Virus record (IMG/VR): IMGVR_UViG_3300035070_004509 | Coordinates: 1-36,930 of that record | DNA length: 36,930 bases | Source: a virus | Direction: 5' to 3' (one strand) | Shown here: positions 2,200-28,178 of the stretch, piece by piece | How the letters are laid out: each line of letters opens with the position of its first letter | How positions within the stretch are numbered: position 1 is the stretch's first letter | The notes under the pieces: generated by a model | Told to the model about the DNA's origin: nothing | Seen by the model: the letters and a program-made list of their open reading frames with translations, nothing else | Databases searched by the model: none | Translations under genes and position numbers: made by a program

Positions 2200-4509
2200 T
2201 TGTCCCAAAACGAAAAAGTAAAAAACATAAATAAGGCCGCTATTCTGGCAGAAATCCAGAAGCGAGCCGAACGTGTTAAAGTAAAAAAGTTTAGTATTGA
2301 AGATTATTGCTTTACTGAACAAATAAACTTTATTAGAGACCCTGCCAAATTTAAAACCGCAGTATGCTCAAGACGTGCCGGAAAATCAGAAGCTTGTGCC
2401 GCAGACCTTGTTGATACTAGTCAAAATTTGAAAAATGCTACCTGCCTATATATAACATTAAGTCGCGTATCTGCCGAACGTATTATTTGGCGTACTTTAC
2501 TAAAAATAATTGAAGAACATCAACTTAAAGTTAAAATAAATAATAAAGAACTTTCCATTAAGTTTTTAGACACCAATTCTATGCTATACGTGTCAGGTGC
2601 AAAAGACGCTACCGAAATTGAAAAGTTTCGTGGTATGTCTCTAAATAAGGTTTATATTGACGAATGTTTTCACCCAGATACATTAATAGAAACTTTATCA
2701 GGATTAAAAAAGATTTCAGGTATTTCCACAAAAGACTATGTAAAAAGCGCCTTAGGCTTTAAAAAAGTAACTGAAATTACAAAAAAACAAAAAAATCTAT
2801 TTACAAAACTGATTTTCAATGGTAAAGTGATAAAGTGTTCATTAGAGCATCCATTTTTAACCGATAACGGTTGGAAAAAAGCTAAAGATTTAAAAGTAGG
2901 AGAGAATCTTGTTAAAACCACAACAGCAATGCGACTATTGCAAGAAGCTATTCACGAAACCAGGCCGGAGGATTTATCGGTTTTGCAGTCTACATTGTTG
3001 TGGGAAGTGGAGTCGAGAGAATTGTCCGAACCCAATGGAAAACAAAGATACTCGAGAAAAAATGGCAGCAACTTTGAAAAGAGTTGGACACAAACCAACA
3101 ATTCGAAAAGGGAACGGACATGGACCAACAGAACCAGAAAAATTAATTATGGAAGCTATTCCAGAAATTACTTGGAACTTTGCAATTGGTTTAGGAAGTC
3201 GTGGAAATGGTTATCCCTCCAACTACAAAGTGGATTTAGCTTTTCCAGAAGTAAAATTAGCGATAGAAATAGATGGCTTATCTCACAACCTAATATCAAG
3301 GAGAGAACAAGACACGAAGAAAGTAGCGAAACTAAGTATATTAGGTTGGAAAGTATTGAGATTCAAGAATCTAGAAGTGATTCAACAAACCCAGAAGGTT
3401 ATTTCTACGATATTGGAGTTGAGGGACACCCTAGTTTCACAGTCAACGAAGTATTAGTACACAATTGTCAATCCTTTAAACCATATATAAAAGAACTGGT
3501 AGAAGATGTACTAAGCTGGGCAACAAAAGACGTTGCTGGAACTATGTGCTTTACAGGCACTCCTGGACCAATACCTGCAGGCTACTTTTATGAAATGTCT
3601 ACTAAAACAAATAAAAAAGTTAGTCAACATAAGTGGACACTGTTACAAAATCCCTGGATAAAAATAAAATCTGGCATGGAGCCTGCTGAAATATTGGCAG
3701 AAGAACGTGCCCGTAAAGGTATAACTGAATCTGACCCAACATACAGACGAGAGGCTCTCGGAGAATGGGTTAAAGACGAAAATGCACTGGTAATAAAATT
3801 CTCACAAAACAAAAATGTGGTCAATTCATTTCCTACAGATTTAACATATATATTTGGAGTAGACATTGGTTTTAATGATGCTGATGCAATTGCTGTAATA
3901 GGTTATAATTACACTTCCAACAATGTATTTTTGGTAGAAGAAGTTGTTCAAGCAAAGCAAGACATAACTACCCTAGTTGGCAAAATAAAAGACCTTCAGG
4001 CATTTTATAAGCCAGTAAAAATTGTTATGGACGCAGGAGCACTAGGTAAAAAAATACAAGAAGAGATTAGAAACAGGCACGGAATAAATGCCGAAGCTGC
4101 CGATAAAAACCGTAAACTGGAGTATATAGAGTTACTTAATGATGACCTTAGGTCAGGACGTTTTAAAACATTTCCAGGTAGCATATTTGAACAAGAATCT
4201 AATATTATAGTATGGGATTATGATGGGCCTGTGAAGAAAATTTCTGACCGTACACATTCTGATTTGCTCGACTCAGTTTTGTATAGTTTCCGTGAAGCAA
4301 AACATTATTTTGAAAAAGAAGTTAACAAAAAGGCAGAAAAGTACTCTAAACAATGGTTAGACGAACAAGAAATGCTATTAGCACAACAGCTTAAAAATAA
4401 AATGAATGATGAAGAAGATATTGTCAGCCAGGATGACATTGAATCAATATTTGAAGATGATTCAGAAATGTTTAGTATATCAGATTCCAGCGGAGACGAC
4501 TGGTATTAG
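2200..4509 (+). CDS. terL: Terminase large subunit precursor, interrupted by an intein
   Basis: A 769-residue precursor; excising the intein (residues 156-422) leaves a 502-residue protein, a normal size for a podovirus terminase. It is the ATP-driven DNA packaging motor with a nuclease that cuts the concatemer. Walker A-like SRRAGKS is at 57-63, and Walker B KVYIDE ends at 155, directly before the intein. The coupling motif FTGTPG is at 451-456. The RNase H-like nuclease acids are D555 (VDIGFND), D611 (VMDAGALG) and D688/D691 (HSDLLDS). The start is TTG at 2200 with AGGTGG about five bases upstream. Because the intein splits the ATPase centre, activity should need splicing. A separate endonuclease is encoded out of frame within the intein part. 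Confidence 0.93.
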   Translation: MSQNEKVKNINKAAILAEIQKRAERVKVKKFSIEDYCFTEQINFIRDPAKFKTAVCSRRAGKSEACAADLVDTSQNLKNATCLYITLSRVSAERIIWRTLLKIIEEHQLKVKINNKELSIKFLDTNSMLYVSGAKDATEIEKFRGMSLNKVYIDECFHPDTLIETLSGLKKISGISTKDYVKSALGFKKVTEITKKQKNLFTKLIFNGKVIKCSLEHPFLTDNGWKKAKDLKVGENLVKTTTAMRLLQEAIHETRPEDLSVLQSTLLWEVESRELSEPNGKQRYSRKNGSNFEKSWTQTNNSKRERTWTNRTRKINYGSYSRNYLELCNWFRKSWKWLSLQLQSGFSFSRSKISDRNRWLISQPNIKERTRHEESSETKYIRLESIEIQESRSDSTNPEGYFYDIGVEGHPSFTVNEVLVHNCQSFKPYIKELVEDVLSWATKDVAGTMCFTGTPGPIPAGYFYEMSTKTNKKVSQHKWTLLQNPWIKIKSGMEPAEILAEERARKGITESDPTYRREALGEWVKDENALVIKFSQNKNVVNSFPTDLTYIFGVDIGFNDADAIAVIGYNYTSNNVFLVEEVVQAKQDITTLVGKIKDLQAFYKPVKIVMDAGALGKKIQEEIRNRHGINAEAADKNRKLEYIELLNDDLRSGRFKTFPGSIFEQESNIIVWDYDGPVKKISDRTHSDLLDSVLYSFREAKHYFEKEVNKKAEKYSKQWLDEQEMLLAQQLKNKMNDEEDIVSQDDIESIFEDDSEMFSISDSSGDDWY
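2665..3465 (+). other. Class 1 intein in the large terminase, inserted after Walker B
   Basis: A 267-residue intein from Cys (2665-2667) to Asn (3463-3465), followed by Cys+1. Block A is CFHPDTLIETLSG. The N4/B region is LEHPFLTDNGWKKAKDLKVGE. Block F is YFYDIGVEGHPSFTVNEV, and block G is VLVHN followed by C, with the usual penultimate His. All residues expected for standard splicing are present, so it should be active. Between the N- and C-terminal splicing blocks the reading frame holds no recognisable endonuclease. It reads a Ser/Arg/Asn/Trp-rich linker of about 160 residues. The endonuclease is instead encoded in the +1 frame over the same bases. Confidence 0.92.
2909..3457 (+). CDS. EDxHD (Vsr-like) homing endonuclease, overlapping the intein in the +1 frame
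   Basis: A 182-residue protein read one base out of frame with the terminase/intein. It has its own start: TTG at 2909 preceded by AGGAGA (2898-2903). The N-terminus holds a zinc-binding pattern (C8-x2-C11, C26-x2-H29-C30). The C-terminal domain has the very-short-patch-repair/DUF559-like nuclease core: E75/E77, D109 in YKVDLAF, LAIEIDG (E120, D122), H126 in LSHN, D135, then LGWKVLRF. This matches the EDxHD homing endonucleases described with inteins and fractured genes. It probably cuts intein-free terminase alleles to spread the intein. The last 18 or so codons lie over intein blocks F and G. The whole gene sits inside the intein coding region. Confidence 0.85.
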   Translation: MLKPQQQCDYCKKLFTKPGRRIYRFCSLHCCGKWSRENCPNPMENKDTREKMAATLKRVGHKPTIRKGNGHGPTEPEKLIMEAIPEITWNFAIGLGSRGNGYPSNYKVDLAFPEVKLAIEIDGLSHNLISRREQDTKKVAKLSILGWKVLRFKNLEVIQQTQKVISTILELRDTLVSQSTKY

Positions 4510-4905: not shown

Positions 4906-6744
4906 ATGTTCAATCAAAATCAAAACGTATATGCCAGCCACTGGTACAAAGAAGATAATAAGCCAGAATCTTTATTTGGATACCTAAAGTCATTAGAAAA
5001 TGAACAGTCTTATATATCTGCAAACAATTTAAGACACCTCAGGTTATACAGTGAATCTGAATTTAACAGTTTATCTAGTTTTAACTATGCCCGGATAGAA
5101 CCTTCATTAGCAGGCGGTAACAGAGTTACATTCAACATTGTACAAAGCATGATTGACACCGCTGTTTCTAAAATTACTAAAAATAAACCACGTCCTTATT
5201 TTCTTACAGATGGCGGCGACTGGTCTTTAAAACGTAAGGCGCAAAAACTTACTCAGTTTGTTGATGGTGCATTTTACACTACTGATTTTTACCGCAAAGC
5301 CACAACTGCATTTAAACATGCCTGCATCTGGGGAACAGGTGCAATTAAGATATACAAGCAGGACAATGAACTTCAAGTAGAAAATGTTATCATTGAAGAA
5401 ATTGTTGTAGACCAAAAAGAATCTTTTTATGGCAAACCACGCCAAATTCACCAAAAAAAGTGGATTCACAGAGAAGTGCTGAAGACAATGTTTCCTGGTA
5501 AAGCAGGAGCAATAGACCTTGCAAACTCTACACTACAAGAATTTGGATATCAAAGTGAGAATAAGGCCGACATGGTTTTAGTAGTAGAATCCTGGAAATT
5601 AAGGTCAGGAAAAAACAAAAACGATGGCCTTCATGGAATATACATTTCAAATGCAACTCTATTTGAAGAAAAATGGAAGAAAGACTATTTTCCGTTTGTG
5701 TTCTTTAAGTGGAATGAGTCTCCAATTGGATTTTTTGGAGAAGGAATTGCTAAACAATTAACTGGCCTGCAAATTGAAATTAATAAGATTTTACGAACTA
5801 TTCAGGTCTCAATGCACTTAGTGTCTGTGCCAAAAATATTTGTAGAAGCAAGTTCTAAAATTGTAACGTCTCACTTGAATAATAAAATTGGTGGCATTAT
5901 TAAATATGCTGGAACCCCTCCAACAGAAGGTAAATTAGGAACTATTCCACCAGACTTATTTAATCACCTAGACAGACTATATCAACGTGCTTTCAGCATT
6001 ATTGGAATATCTCAACTTTCTGCTCAGGCCCAAAAGCCACAAGGGCTTAATTCTGGCAAGGCCTTAAGAGCCTACAACGACATCGAAACAGAAAGATTTA
6101 CATCAGTAGGCCAGGACTATCAAAATGCTGCTTTAGACGCAGCTCGTCAAATGATAGATGTTATTAAAGAAATTTCAGACGAAACTGGTAATTTCTCAGT
6201 TAAAAGTCCAGGCTCTAAGTTTTTATCAAAAATAACATGGAAAGATGTGGAATTGGAAGAGTCTGACTATATCATGCAATGTTTTCCAATATCGGCATTA
6301 TCGCAAGACCCAGCATCTCGTTTATCGGAAGTACAAGAATTAATCCAAGGCGGTTTATTGGATAAACAAAATGGAATGAAATTATTAGACTATCCCGACC
6401 TTAGGTCATATTATGACATGGTAAATGCAGGTATAGATATAATAGAGCAACAAATTGAATTTATGGTAGATAAAAATGAATACACAGGCCCAGAACCATA
6501 TATGAACCTGCCACAAGCAATGGTAATGGTACAAAATGCTTATCTTAAATTCAAAGTTGAAGGCGCTCCTGAGGAAAATCTAGACCTTTTAAGAAGATAT
6601 TTAGATGAGTGTAATGAGTTATTAGCACAAGCATCAGCGCCTACGCCAGAAGAGCAAATGCAAATGGAGCAGCAGGCTATCCAGACGGGAAGACCTGCAA
6701 CTCCTCCAACAGCAGAATTATTACCTAATAACCCTATAGGATAA
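4906..6744 (+). CDS. Portal (head-tail connector) protein
   Basis: A 612-residue protein with ATG at 4906 after AAAGGATAG. The length, the position between terminase and scaffold, and the segments fit the portal family: SMIDTAVSKITKNKPRPYF near residue 85, GTGAIKIY, and PFVFFKWNESPIGFFGEGIAKQL with the long helix that follows (INKILRTIQVSMH). Portal proteins form the dodecameric ring at one capsid vertex through which the terminase pumps DNA. The C-terminal 100 residues are helical and then Gln/Pro-rich, which suits a barrel or tail extension. The stop is followed one base later by an HNH endonuclease gene. Confidence 0.88.
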   Translation: MFNQNQNVYASHWYKEDNKPESLFGYLKSLENEQSYISANNLRHLRLYSESEFNSLSSFNYARIEPSLAGGNRVTFNIVQSMIDTAVSKITKNKPRPYFLTDGGDWSLKRKAQKLTQFVDGAFYTTDFYRKATTAFKHACIWGTGAIKIYKQDNELQVENVIIEEIVVDQKESFYGKPRQIHQKKWIHREVLKTMFPGKAGAIDLANSTLQEFGYQSENKADMVLVVESWKLRSGKNKNDGLHGIYISNATLFEEKWKKDYFPFVFFKWNESPIGFFGEGIAKQLTGLQIEINKILRTIQVSMHLVSVPKIFVEASSKIVTSHLNNKIGGIIKYAGTPPTEGKLGTIPPDLFNHLDRLYQRAFSIIGISQLSAQAQKPQGLNSGKALRAYNDIETERFTSVGQDYQNAALDAARQMIDVIKEISDETGNFSVKSPGSKFLSKITWKDVELEESDYIMQCFPISALSQDPASRLSEVQELIQGGLLDKQNGMKLLDYPDLRSYYDMVNAGIDIIEQQIEFMVDKNEYTGPEPYMNLPQAMVMVQNAYLKFKVEGAPEENLDLLRRYLDECNELLAQASAPTPEEQMQMEQQAIQTGRPATPPTAELLPNNPIG

Positions 6745-6745
6745 T

Positions 6746-7294
6746 ATGAAAACTTGTTGTGTATGTAAAATTAAACAACCTAAGGAAAACTTCTGTAAAA
6801 ACACCCAAGCAAAAGATGGATTAAATTATCAATGTAAAAGCTGTAAAAAAATAATTGGAAAAAAATACTATTGGAGTGATACAGAAAGAGAAAGTAATAG
6901 GAAAAAAGAATACTATATAAAAAACAAAGAAATTTTAAATAAAAAAATATATAAATACAAAAAAGAAAGAAAGAAGACCGATAAACTATTTAAATTTTCA
7001 GAGGATACTAGGCGCCTTATAAGACAAGCATTTAAAAGAAGAGGTTTTACAAAGAATACCAAAACATATCAAATATTAGGATGCTCTTTTGAAGATTTTA
7101 AAATTCATCTAGAAAACCAATTTGTACCTGGAATGAACTGGGGTAATCGCAATAAATGGCATATAGACCACATAGTACCAGTTAGTTTAGGGAAAACTGA
7201 AGAAGAAATAATAAAATTGAATCATTATACTAATTTAAGACCACTTTGGGCTGAGGAGAACCTTAAAAAAGGCAGCAAATATGAGCAGGTCTAG
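6746..7294 (+). CDS. Free-standing HNH endonuclease with N-terminal zinc finger
   Basis: A 182-residue protein. Residues 4-33 form a CxxC...CxxC zinc finger with the spacer KDGLNYQCKSC typical of phage HNH proteins. The middle is a lysine-rich helix. The HNH core is KWHIDHIVPVSL (H139, D141, H142), then NLRPLW (N163) and AEENLKKG (N172). It is expected to nick or cut DNA with a metal ion and to behave as a homing endonuclease. It starts one base after the portal stop and overlaps the next gene by 14 bases, as expected of an insertion into a tight operon. It shares the finger and HNH layout with the gene at 10153. The target site is unknown. Confidence 0.85.
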   Translation: MKTCCVCKIKQPKENFCKNTQAKDGLNYQCKSCKKIIGKKYYWSDTERESNRKKEYYIKNKEILNKKIYKYKKERKKTDKLFKFSEDTRRLIRQAFKRRGFTKNTKTYQILGCSFEDFKIHLENQFVPGMNWGNRNKWHIDHIVPVSLGKTEEEIIKLNHYTNLRPLWAEENLKKGSKYEQV

Positions 7295-7484
7295 AAAAGC
7301 GCCATACTGGACAGACGGCTCCGGCTCAAAATGGAAGAAAAAAGCCAAAAAACAAGCTAACAATGTTGTAAAAGCGACAAAAGATATTGCAAACGGAAAA
7401 TCATATAAGAAAGTATTTGAGTCCTGGTTAATATGTGACTTTAAGTTTCCAGACCCCAAAAATCCAAAGGCCTACAGAAAATAG
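7281..7484 (+). CDS. Small basic protein of unknown function
   Basis: A 67-residue protein starting at ATG 7281 inside the end of the HNH gene, with AAAGGCAGC upstream. It begins MSRSRKAPYWTDGSGSK and is strongly basic throughout, with no membrane segment and no cysteine motif apart from one Cys. Short basic proteins beginning MSRSRK are common in phage head regions, but I know of no function. It is followed by a 96-base gap holding late promoter-like copy 2, so it closes the portal unit. Confidence 0.6.
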   Translation: MSRSRKAPYWTDGSGSKWKKKAKKQANNVVKATKDIANGKSYKKVFESWLICDFKFPDPKNPKAYRK

Positions 7485-7506
7485 TGCTGGAATATGCTCA
7501 GAAATA

Positions 7507-7523
7507 TATAATATTGACACATA
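7507..7523 (+). promoter_or_regulatory. Late promoter-like element, copy 2
   Basis: TATAAT at 7507-7512, ATT, then GACACATA at 7516-7523. The upstream sequence ATGCTCAGAAA is shared with copy 6 at 26019. It lies in the gap before the scaffold and capsid genes and would give an mRNA leader of about 60 bases. Confidence 0.72.
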
Positions 7524-7580
7524 GTTGGACGCTATTGTCAAGAACTTAAAAACGTCCTTAAAAAGCTAACAGGAGAATTT

Positions 7581-8525
7581 ATGTCAGAAAGTTTATCTAT
7601 TCAGGATATGCCAATTTCAACGGAAACAATCACAACACCGGCCCCAGCCCAAAACTTGTTTGAAACAAGCAATGAACCAGAAAACGTAGAAAAAAAGCCG
7701 GTAGAAGACGCCAGCAAAAAGCCAATAGATGAAAAACTTTCTAGTAAATTTGCAGCCTTAAGCCGTAAAGAAAAACTGCTTAAACAACAAGAAATGCAAT
7801 TTAAGCAACAAGAAATTCAACTAAAGCAAAAAGACCAGGAATATCAAAACAGTATTTCTAGCATGAAAGCCGAACTTGAAAAAATAAAGTCAGAATTTGA
7901 GCAATATAGAACCGGCATAAAACAGAACCCATTGAAGCACTTACAGGCCGAAGGATACGATTTTGATAAACTGACAGAAATGCAGTTAAATGACCAAAAT
8001 CCGACTCCAGAAATGATGTTAGAACGTGCTAAAAAAGAGTTAGAATCAGGCTATAAATCTGAAATAGAAAAAATGAAAGCAGAACTTGCTGAAAAAGAAA
8101 AATCGGCCCAGGAAGCTGCCGAAAAAGCAGAATTAGAAGCTCAGGAAAAAATTAAGGTAGATTATCAAACAGAGATAAACGCTTATTTAGAGCAAAATGC
8201 TGAAAAATATGAACTTATAAATTTAAATAATGCTCAAAGCATAGTATACGATGTGGTAGAGCAATTTTATGATGAACACCAACGTATTTTAACTCTGGAG
8301 GAAGCTGCAGACTTCACAGAAAAATACCTTGAAGAAGAAGCGAATAAACTACTTAAGGCAAAAAAGTTTAATAAACCGCAGCAAACACAAAAGCAACAAA
8401 GCGAACCAAAAGAGAGTTTCACACTCTCAAATGACATGTCCACTCAAGTTCCTAGAGGTGATGTCAGAAAGTTATCTAGGGAAGAAGAAATTCAAGAAAT
8501 TGCAAAAAAACTTGTTTGGGAATAG
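7581..8525 (+). CDS. Capsid scaffolding protein
   Basis: A 314-residue protein with ATG at 7581 after CAGGAGAA. It is highly charged. Residues 60-125 and 150-200 are long heptad-rich helices (LKQQEMQFKQQEIQLKQKD, then KAELAEKEKSAQEAAEKAEL), predicted coiled coils. The N-terminus is Pro/Thr-rich and the C-terminus ends in the basic/amphipathic segment REEEIQEIAKKLVWE. Charge, helicity and position directly upstream of the major capsid gene fit an internal scaffold. Such proteins direct procapsid assembly and leave before or during packaging. The gene is the first coding region after late promoter-like copy 2. Confidence 0.82.
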   Translation: MSESLSIQDMPISTETITTPAPAQNLFETSNEPENVEKKPVEDASKKPIDEKLSSKFAALSRKEKLLKQQEMQFKQQEIQLKQKDQEYQNSISSMKAELEKIKSEFEQYRTGIKQNPLKHLQAEGYDFDKLTEMQLNDQNPTPEMMLERAKKELESGYKSEIEKMKAELAEKEKSAQEAAEKAELEAQEKIKVDYQTEINAYLEQNAEKYELINLNNAQSIVYDVVEQFYDEHQRILTLEEAADFTEKYLEEEANKLLKAKKFNKPQQTQKQQSEPKESFTLSNDMSTQVPRGDVRKLSREEEIQEIAKKLVWE

Positions 8526-8595
8526 GTCTCAGGCCGGAAATAACAATTTCAACAAAAACAAAACATAAGGTCTTAACTGACCACAAAGGATAAAA

Positions 8596-10046
8596 ATGGC
8601 TGATTTAAATATGACGAGCTTCGCGGCTGCGTTAAAACAAATGTACTCTCCAGATAAAGTAAAGAATATGGTATATCAGGATTAACGGTAGTCCCCCTAA
8701 GTAGAAATATTTAGGTAAACTTCGGGCAAAATCGGTGGAAGTCCTTGACAAAAGGATAATACCGAGGTAAACTGAGAAGGTAAAGAAACTCAGTCACCGT
8801 AACGCTTAGAGGATGATACTGCTCTTTTAGCAGACTATAAACCTCCACGAGTGTCCGACACCCAAAAAGGGTGAAAATATAAGCTGAACTTGCTGGTAAC
8901 AGTAAGATGTAGAGGATAAAAAGCCACTACGATAACAAATTGAACCCATTACTTGCTCTATTACCAAAAATGGAAAATTTCGTAGGTGAAAACTATGTTC
9001 AACCTATAATTTTCGGAAACTCTCAAGGAGCTTCTGCTACTTTCGCTAATGCTCAAGCAAATAAAACTGCTGGTAGCATTAAAAAATTCACTATCACTAC
9101 TGTTAAAGACTATTCTTTAGCATCAATTGATAATGAGACAATTTTAGCATCTAAAAACAATTCTGGCGCTTTTATGTCAGCAGTTTCTTTTGCTACTGAC
9201 GGTGCTTTTGCTCAGGCCTCAAGGTCTTTAGCAGGTGCAGTATACGGTTCTGGTTCTGGTAAATTAGGTCAAGTTGTTTCTACATACTCTTCTGGTACAA
9301 CAATTACTTTAAGTCAGGCTTCTGACATTGTTAACTTTGAAGTTGGTATGAAAATTAACTTCGCAGTTGCTGAAACTGGCGGTTCTGTTATTGCAACTAA
9401 ACCAACTATTTCTAACATTGATAGAGATGCTGGTTCTTTCGTAGTTTCAGATGCTACTTCAGTTCTTGCTGACCACTATATCTACAGAGATGGAGATTAT
9501 GACCTTAAACTTAAAGGTTTAGAGGCATGGTTACCAGGTTCTGCAGTTACTTCAGCTTCATACTTTGGAGTTGACAGAAGTGTTGATAAGTCAAGACTTG
9601 CTGGTATTGTTTACGATGGTTCAACTGCTCCTATTGAAGAAGTTGTAATTTCTGCTGCTGCTAGACTTGCTCGTGAAGGTGGAAAACCTACTCACTTATT
9701 CTTATCATATGAGAAATTTGCTGAGTTGGAAAAATCTTTAGGTTCTAAAGTTCAGTATGTTGACCTTAAAGCTGATGCTGATGTCGGTTTCCGTGGTATT
9801 GTTATCAATGGACCAAGAGGCCCGATTAAGGTTATTGCGGACCAAAATTGTAGCCATAATAAGGCATACATGTTACAACTTGACACATGGAAATTGCTAA
9901 GTCGTGGACCTGCCCCTCAGATATTGAATATGGACGGTATAGACCGCTTAAGGGACTCTAGTGCAGATAGCATCGAGTTAAGAATTGGTTTTTATGGAAA
10001 TTTAAGCTGCAGCGCACCTGGCTGGAACTGTAAAATTTCATTTTAA
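8596..10046 (+). CDS. Major capsid protein, gene interrupted by a group I intron
   Basis: Two exons: 8596-8682 (29 codons, MADLNMTSFAAALKQMYS to YQD) and 8943-10046 (starting NPLLALLPK). Joined they give 395 residues. The exon 1 frame meets a stop within four bases of the splice site, so splicing is required. The N-terminal arm, LLALLPKMENFVGENYVQPI, the central Gly/Ser-rich strands with an inserted domain (about residues 115-180), and the end NLSCSAPGWNCKISF fit an HK97-fold coat protein of the kind found in podoviruses. AAAGGA lies before the ATG. A strong terminator follows the gene. Position after the scaffold supports the call. Confidence 0.85.
8683..8942 (+). ncRNA. ORF-less group I self-splicing intron in the major capsid gene
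   Basis: 260 bases that can be folded by hand. P1: exon GGAT (8679-8682) with GTCC (8691-8694), giving the U-G pair at the 5' site. P10: GGT (8687-8689) with exon ACC (8944-8946). P2: CCTAA/TTAGG (8696-8700/8711-8715). P3: TCGGGC/GTCCGA (8722-8727/8853-8858). P4: CGGT/ACCG (8733-8736/8761-8764). P5: TCCTT/AAGGA (8742-8746/8752-8756). P6: GGT/ACC with an ACTGAG/CTCAGT extension. P7: CTATA/TGTAG (8835-8839/8908-8912). P8: CACCC/GGGTG (8859-8863/8868-8872). The S-like element AAGATGTAGAGG is present and the last base is G. It encodes no protein. Confidence 0.9.
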
Positions 10047-10117: not shown

Positions 10118-10146
10118 TTGCAAAATGTAGAAATTTGTTATATAAT
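10118..10146 (+). promoter_or_regulatory. Sigma70-type promoter of the second HNH gene
   Basis: TTGCAA (10118-10123), a 17-base spacer and a perfect TATAAT (10141-10146). The expected start of transcription coincides with the ATG at 10153, so the message would have little or no leader. It starts immediately after the T run of the terminator. Confidence 0.7.
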
Positions 10147-10152
10147 GTAAAT

Positions 10153-10881
10153 ATGGAAACAAAAATTTGTACAAAATGTAAAGAAACAAAACCATTAAGT
10201 GAGTTTACCAAGAATAAAAAGTCTAAAGACGGATTAAGAGCTTATTGTAGAGAGTGTGCCTCTAAATATTTTAAAGCCTGGAGAATTAATAATATAGACA
10301 GCGAAAGGTTAAGAAATAAAAAATTTATTACAAAGAATCCAGAAAAAAAGAAGCAGTATGATAAGAAGTATTATACAAAAAATATCGAGAAAAGAAAAAC
10401 TTATTTAAAAAATTACTATATAAAAAACTCCGAACATATAAGAAATAGAGTGAAATTATATGAGGAAAACAACCCAGAAAAAGTTAAAAAGACTGGTAAA
10501 TTGTGGAGAGAAAAAAATAAAGAATATAAAAGACAAATGGATAAAATATATGGTGCAAAATACTATAAAAATAATATTGATAGGATAAGAGAGTATACTA
10601 AAAAATGGAGAATAGAAAATCCAGATAAAAATACCGCAAAATCTTCTAAAAGAAGAGCCTCAAAGATAAAAGCAACTCCAAAATGGTTAACAAAGCAGCA
10701 ACTAGCTGAAATTGCTAACATTTATAAACAGGCTAAACAGTTGGAGAAGGAAACAGGCCTTAAATACCATGTTGACCACATAATACCATTAAAAGGTAAA
10801 GACGTCTGCGGTCTCCATGTACCATGGAATTTACAAGTATTAAAAGCCGAAGAAAATATTAGGAAAGGTAATAAAATATAA
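10153..10881 (+). CDS. Free-standing HNH endonuclease with N-terminal zinc finger
   Basis: A 242-residue protein. I chose ATG 10153 because the upstream in-frame TTG (10135) lies inside the promoter. The N-terminal finger is C6-x2-C9 with KDGLRAYCRECAS. Residues 50-170 are a long Lys/Tyr/Asn-rich helical region with repeated KNPEK/ENPEK-like pieces, probably DNA binding. The C-terminal HNH core is KYHVDHIIPLKGKDV, then PWNLQVLKAEENIRKGNK. It is related to the endonuclease at 6746. It is separated from the capsid gene by a terminator and has its own promoter. Being next to the intron-bearing capsid gene, it may help move that ORF-less intron; this is inference. Confidence 0.87.
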   Translation: METKICTKCKETKPLSEFTKNKKSKDGLRAYCRECASKYFKAWRINNIDSERLRNKKFITKNPEKKKQYDKKYYTKNIEKRKTYLKNYYIKNSEHIRNRVKLYEENNPEKVKKTGKLWREKNKEYKRQMDKIYGAKYYKNNIDRIREYTKKWRIENPDKNTAKSSKRRASKIKATPKWLTKQQLAEIANIYKQAKQLEKETGLKYHVDHIIPLKGKDVCGLHVPWNLQVLKAEENIRKGNKI

Positions 10882-27689: not shown

Positions 27690-28178
27690 CTATTTAACTT
27701 CTCCTACAAAAATATACTCTCCAAACAGTAATTTTGCTTTTTCATCGTATGCAAGCTTAGCTTCTAATTCAGTGTTATAAGTCCCTAAAGGTATTTTTTG
27801 TTTTTTAAATTGAATCTGTGCCTTCCATTTACCATTTTTTGCTTGATGAACTCCTTTATAAGAAGATGTTTTTTTATTATATCTTGGTCTTGCATTAATA
27901 TTATTCCCAACATGGTCAGTAATTCTTAAATTAGAAATACAATTATTCAAAGGATTTCCATCTATATGGTCTACTATTTCATTTTTTAAAGCTCCTGTTA
28001 ACATTCTATGAAGTCTATAATGTTTTCCTTTTAAAATCCCTACAACATATGTTCCATAATGTCTTTCTGTAGAATAAAAATTCCACTTAATTTTATTATA
28101 AATTTCAAAAGACTCTAAATCAATATTTATTTCTTTTACTCCAAATTTAGGAGTATATTTAAAAATACGCAATCTCAT
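27690..28178 (-). CDS. HNH homing endonuclease with AP2 domain
   Basis: A 162-residue protein. HNH_3-type core: HRMLTGALKNEIVDHIDGNPLNNCISNLRITD (about residues 57-88; H, DH and N positions present). A C-terminal AP2-like DNA-binding domain follows: SSYKGVHQAKNGKWKAQIQFKKQKIPLGTYNTELEAKLAYDEKAKLLFG (about 105-153). This combination is typical of phage homing endonucleases. Its ATG overlaps the DNA polymerase stop in ATGA, as expected of an inserted element that adopted the operon's coupling. The DNA polymerase gene is a common target for such elements, but I cannot see its recognition site. Confidence 0.87.
   Translation of the reverse strand: MRLRIFKYTPKFGVKEINIDLESFEIYNKIKWNFYSTERHYGTYVVGILKGKHYRLHRMLTGALKNEIVDHIDGNPLNNCISNLRITDHVGNNINARPRYNKKTSSYKGVHQAKNGKWKAQIQFKKQKIPLGTYNTELEAKLAYDEKAKLLFGEYIFVGEVK

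Follow-up and report, generated by a model that had tools for sequence, protein, structure and literature searches.

A very probable group IA intron without an endonuclease gene in the major capsid gene of virus record IMGVR_UViG_3300035070_004509

Introduction

Group I introns have been described in the major capsid protein (MCP) genes of several phages. In the mycobacteriophage LittleE, the spliced RNA and the N-terminal protein sequence of an intron-bearing major capsid gene have been demonstrated experimentally (PMC3706429). That intron, of about 819 nt and with an opposite-strand HNH endonuclease gene, belongs to a mycobacterial host and to a phage unrelated to the one described here (PMC3706429). 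The MCP genes of crAss-like uncultured phages, a different lineage, are also interrupted by group I introns, several of them in one example, which were recognised through their endonuclease domains (PMC7886860). With these reports published, the element analysed here is of a known kind and is not the first MCP intron.

Its closest described relatives are group IA introns from phages of Staphylococcus and Streptococcus, for example in terL of PMBT8 (L090) and in phiJH1301-1 (L091). They share its core, P7.1/P7.2, P9 and 3′ end, but occupy other genes (terL, tape-measure) in other hosts. The introns of S-CoN_Ph2 (L084), ROSA (L086) and MMB025 (L085) differ further in having an endonuclease ORF in L5. 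The phage Twort (NC_007021, L296) also carries group I introns, one of which has a solved crystal structure (PMC3984707).

Here we analyse a 36,930-nt stretch of DNA from an uncultured phage (the window), whose MCP gene contains an insert at 8683-8942. We identify this insert with high confidence as a self-splicing group IA intron that has no endonuclease gene of its own; its splicing is deduced from the sequence. Such introns break a structural gene that is widely used for identifying uncultured phages; in this case ORF calling drops the N-terminal 29 residues, while the intron lineage escapes the standard Rfam model. A literature search turned up no report of introns at this site or in this MCP family, and no survey covering this part of the capsid gene. 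Beyond the preliminary description of the locus, we report a cluster of MCP intron sites and an HNH gene as a possible mobiliser.

Results

An insert splits the capsid gene after 29 codons

The split gene has the following parts:

8596..8682, + strand: MCP exon 1, 29 codons MADLNMTSFAAALKQMYSPDKVKNMVYQD, with the ribosome-binding-site-like AAAGGAT upstream.
8683..8942, + strand: predicted ORF-less group IA intron, 260 nt, terminal G at 8942 (hold-out covariance model, covariation, blastn).
8943..10046, + strand: MCP exon 2, 367 codons plus stop (PHROG 14242 major head protein and homologues).

Exon 1 runs from ATG 8596 to the residues VYQD, which end at 8682, and is followed directly by a TAA codon (8683-8685). 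Stops are present in all three frames of 8683-8942. Mechanical ORF calling places the start of the capsid ORF at TTG 8940 (368 aa), with no ribosome-binding-site-like sequence directly 5′ of it. Accordingly, the preliminary description was right on the length of exon 1, on the ORF-less insert, and on a false TTG start that costs the protein its N-terminus. Joining 8682 to 8943 gives a protein of 396 aa, and the intronless homologue in the closest relative (L001) is equally long. Over residues 5-381, the joined protein scores 62.3 bits against PHROG 14242 ‘major head protein’, compared to 55.3 bits for the TTG-started form. That this would be the most highly expressed structural gene, as also stated earlier, is an expectation from homology.

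The boundaries proposed earlier agree with intronless alleles: 155 of the 159 fetched MCP loci, which include some contigs twice, align unbroken across the exact junction. The four exceptions are L008 and L282 (two copies of a contig starting inside the gene), L076 (a short fragment) and L061 (interrupted close by through an intron of its own). A boundary shift by one base would also preserve the frame (GAT|AAC to GAG AAC); we favour 8683-8942 because of the U at position −1, the terminal G and the D/N found at that residue in the MCP family. In L001 the MCP gene is uninterrupted and 78% identical over exon 2. Against this relative, dN/dS is about 0.08 for exon 1 and 0.17 for exon 2. Both exons are under purifying selection, and the split gene is therefore in use.

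No intron at exactly the same site was found in the other fetched MCPs, and a DNA pattern search for one returned four unrelated stretches only. Among isolate phages, the MCP search gave weak matches only and the portal protein search found no relatives.

The insert has the architecture of a group IA intron

The following pairings were assigned, the percentages referring to alignment cells that are paired:

8679..8694, + strand: P1, exon GGAU (8679-8682) with intron GUCC (8691-8694), plus U8683-A8690; from the sequence and a hairpin in the minimum-energy fold.
8687..8946, + strand: P10, exon 2 ACC (A8944-C8946) with GGU (G8687-U8689); assigned by hand from the sequence.
8696..8715, + strand: P2 hairpin CCUAAGUA/UAUUUAGG with a GAAA loop; from the minimum-energy fold.
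8722..8858, + strand: P3, 8722-8728 with 8852-8858; 96.0% paired, 6 of 7 pairs change on both sides.
Within 8733..8764, + strand: P4, 8733-8736 with 8761-8764; 100% paired, covariation in 1 pair.
Within 8733..8764, + strand: P5, 8741-8746 with 8752-8757; 56-74% paired.
8766..8798, + strand: P6 and P6a, 8766-8768 with 8796-8798 and 8771-8776 with 8789-8794; 8 of 9 pairs change on both sides.
8802..8885, + strand: P7, 8804-8808 (plus 8802, with C8803 bulged) with 8880-8884 (plus 8885).
Within 8809..8845, + strand: P7.1, 8809-8812 with 8842-8845; 97.2% paired.
Within 8809..8845, + strand: P7.2, 8819-8822 with 8830-8833; 91.3% paired.
8859..8873, + strand: P8, 8859-8863 with 8869-8873; 5 of 5 pairs change on both sides.
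8889..8906, + strand: P9, 8889-8895 with 8900-8906; 99.2% paired.

Covariation was measured on 18 ORF-less introns (the window intron and 17 relatives), with the structure drawn on the window intron. Across the 52 proposed core pairs 92.7% of cells are paired, and 37 pairs have changes on both sides. Compensatory cells number 186 versus 53 in shuffles, and none of the 500 shuffles, a control that ignores the relatedness of the introns, matches the named structure on any measure. Sliding the partners by 1-3 columns lowers pairing to only 33-43%. P1, P2 and P10 lie outside this test and come from single-sequence reasoning. The insert plus flanks folds 4.7 SD better than shuffled sequence. Two columns that are invariant in the 17 relatives deviate in the window intron, one a flank base and one beside P9.

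P7 is paired in 100% of cells across the 18 introns; at two positions, where three types of base pair occur, its changes are compensatory. Covariation is likewise seen in P3, P6, P7.1, P8 and P9. Its 5-bp complementarity recurs in 41 of 41 motif matches, the middle base having been left free in the search. A different P7, CCUC with GAGG, was dropped because covariation puts P7 at 8802-8808/8880-8885. Within P7, G8804-C8884 corresponds to the guanosine-binding pair.

The insert thus combines the P3/P7 pseudoknot, including the conserved R and S elements and the G-C pair, with a P4-P6 domain and P8 supported by covariation. The terminal U of exon 1 sits in a U.G pair of P1 (U8682.G8691), which marks the 5′ splice site, and the intron ends in G; exact intronless alleles exist and the exons join in frame. 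P7.1 and P7.2, a hallmark of group IA introns, lie between P7 and P3′, and both hairpins are supported. The U.G pair and terminal G noted in the preliminary description can be read directly in the sequence, and the group I architecture it drew by hand holds up under covariation and the hold-out covariance model described below.

Two-step, guanosine-initiated splicing is established group I biochemistry, and the P1 U.G pair, P10, G8942 and G8804-C8884 would supply the elements for it. By this anatomy, the pre-mRNA would fold into a P3-P9 ribozyme whose P7 G-C pair would receive an exogenous guanosine for the first attack, after U8682. Exon 1, now free but kept in place by P1 and P10, would in turn attack after G8942. 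Such joining would restore the capsid frame and make the TTG-started ORF an annotation artefact. We infer that splicing does occur, and without protein help.

A lineage-specific model detects the intron and Rfam RF00028 does not

The preliminary description had proposed a covariance search with group I models, and the outcome depends on the model. Rfam RF00028 gave no match to the intron at gathering or relaxed thresholds, including a search of the 801 bases around it with the cut-off set at E<=10. A covariance model (R1) built from 17 phage introns with the window left out matches 8720-8919 with 181.8 bits (E=1.5e-57), its sole match in the window. Because the window was held out, this match is independent of relatedness and of the structure drawn on the window. 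The RF00028 result is a false negative: the model also misses six of seven sampled relatives (L078, L079, L083, L084, L086, L090) while finding L087, and it does detect the Twort introns. Its miss is a limit of the detector.

By blastn, the insert matches 110 phage records, mostly of Streptococcus and Staphylococcus phages, in partial alignments of roughly 65-88% identity. In the records that were opened, the matches lie between pieces of terL, tape-measure, helicase or DNA polymerase genes. R1 finds the PMBT8 and phiJH1301-1 type of intron; in the Twort stretch it detects three introns, with scores of 31-60 bits. The Twort introns, RF00028-positive unlike the window intron, form a separate clade with L072, near L087, whereas the window intron groups with L081 and L192 (support 0.98). 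An endonuclease-type ORF occupies L5 in the relatives L084, L085, L086 and L094. L5 of the window intron is five bases long, and the intron therefore has no endonuclease. It would have arrived by homing, the endonuclease gene having either been lost from L5 or never been present.

In Staphylococcus phage SpP (L095), two group IA introns (1381-1582 and 2830-3065) lie close together around a terminase gene.

Alternative readings of the split gene

The insert could be a degenerated or poorly splicing group I intron, dead or regulatory, from which little intact capsid protein is made. Its splicing is, after all, read from sequence, and two otherwise invariant columns show small departures. We nevertheless consider this very improbable: the pairings of the catalytic core are all intact, both exons are under purifying selection, and no second MCP was noticed among the window ORFs. 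Still harder to credit, with next to no probability in our view, is that there is no intron at all and that the ribosome bypasses the insert by a programmed mechanism, or that a small separate ORF precedes a capsid gene starting at TTG 8940. Mechanical ORF calling does yield exactly these two ORFs; yet the TTG has no ribosome-binding-site-like sequence directly upstream, intronless homologues are contiguous across the junction, and a covarying group I core is not what bypass would lead one to expect. A splicing group IA intron is thus by far the most probable reading.

An HNH gene adjoins the capsid gene

One further ORF bears on mobility:

10135..10881, + strand: free-standing HNH/endonuclease VII-type ORF, a putative homing endonuclease of 248 aa from TTG, with an internal ATG at 10153 (PHROG 1035/2340/2255 endonucleases).

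Its start lies 89 nt downstream of the stop codon of the MCP gene. In collaborative homing as published, an intron that lacks an ORF has a free-standing endonuclease gene next to it (PMC3984707, PMC10448857), and the window has the same layout. The HNH protein may therefore mobilise the intron by cutting intronless MCP alleles at the intron site, a mechanism compatible with the group IA reading. In its favour, the syntenic L001 has neither the intron nor this HNH gene. Moreover, the junction is 57% identical to L001, measured in a single short interval, compared to roughly 80% nearby, which fits co-conversion of the flanking exon during homing. However, a second HNH ORF (6746-7294), between the portal and scaffold genes, is likewise missing in L001, so that the differences in such elements need not be linked. 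None of the 80 HNH relatives lies near this MCP family, and an intron match, itself weak, occurs close to just one of them. As the HNH target in the MCP gene is putative and its relatives show no tie to that gene, we regard collaborative homing as possible but rather unlikely.

A link of the HNH relatives to introns or to the MCP was also considered and rejected: they lie apart from this MCP family, and none is clearly encoded within an intron. A third HNH-type ORF (27690-28178), with an AP2 domain, adjoins the DNA polymerase gene.

Four intron sites lie close together near the N-terminus of the MCP

Other members of the MCP family have introns close to the window site. In L239 the intron lies about seven codons upstream (R1, 92.9 bits) and contains an endonuclease VII-type gene. 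The L061 intron (2742-2954; RF00028, 60.8 bits) lies about nine codons downstream, and that of L072, L073 and L077 (2721-2941 in L072; RF00028, 98.3 bits) about fifteen codons downstream. With the window intron, this makes four distinct sites within about 66 nt at the MCP N-terminus, for which a crude simulation of four random sites in a 1191-nt gene gives 7e-4. The sample was not designed for this question, and the clustering is therefore a lead only. No insertions in other parts of the MCP gene were found by a tblastn scan; the known L061 and L072 cases, with their short first exons, also went unflagged, so the scan speaks only for introns flanked by longer exons.

Group I introns prefer conserved positions (PMC2814812), and clustered independent introns thus provide a small test of site choice by homing elements. 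A broader proposal is that unrelated group I introns have landed repeatedly in the MCP N-terminal block (at least four sites in a span of about 66 nt, plus the intron-rich L192, where another protein of PHROG 14242 is split), with the window intron mobilised in trans by the adjoining HNH gene. Taken as a whole, we find this proposal doubtful.

Three further observations concern mobile elements in these phages. In the MCP gene of L239 (1727-2520), the endonuclease VII-type ORF of the group IA intron appears to begin in the ribozyme core and to extend into the P9 region. In L192, a capsid-like gene (5779-8725, with a PHROG 14242 match on its 3′ part) appears to be split by several group IA introns, one of them with a GIY-YIG endonuclease, and one exon may be only 13 nt long. 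Finally, the terminase large subunit of the window holds an intein (2665-3465) at VYIDE|C, and a DUF559/Vsr-like endonuclease ORF (2909-3457) lies wholly within it, on the same strand and in the +1 frame.
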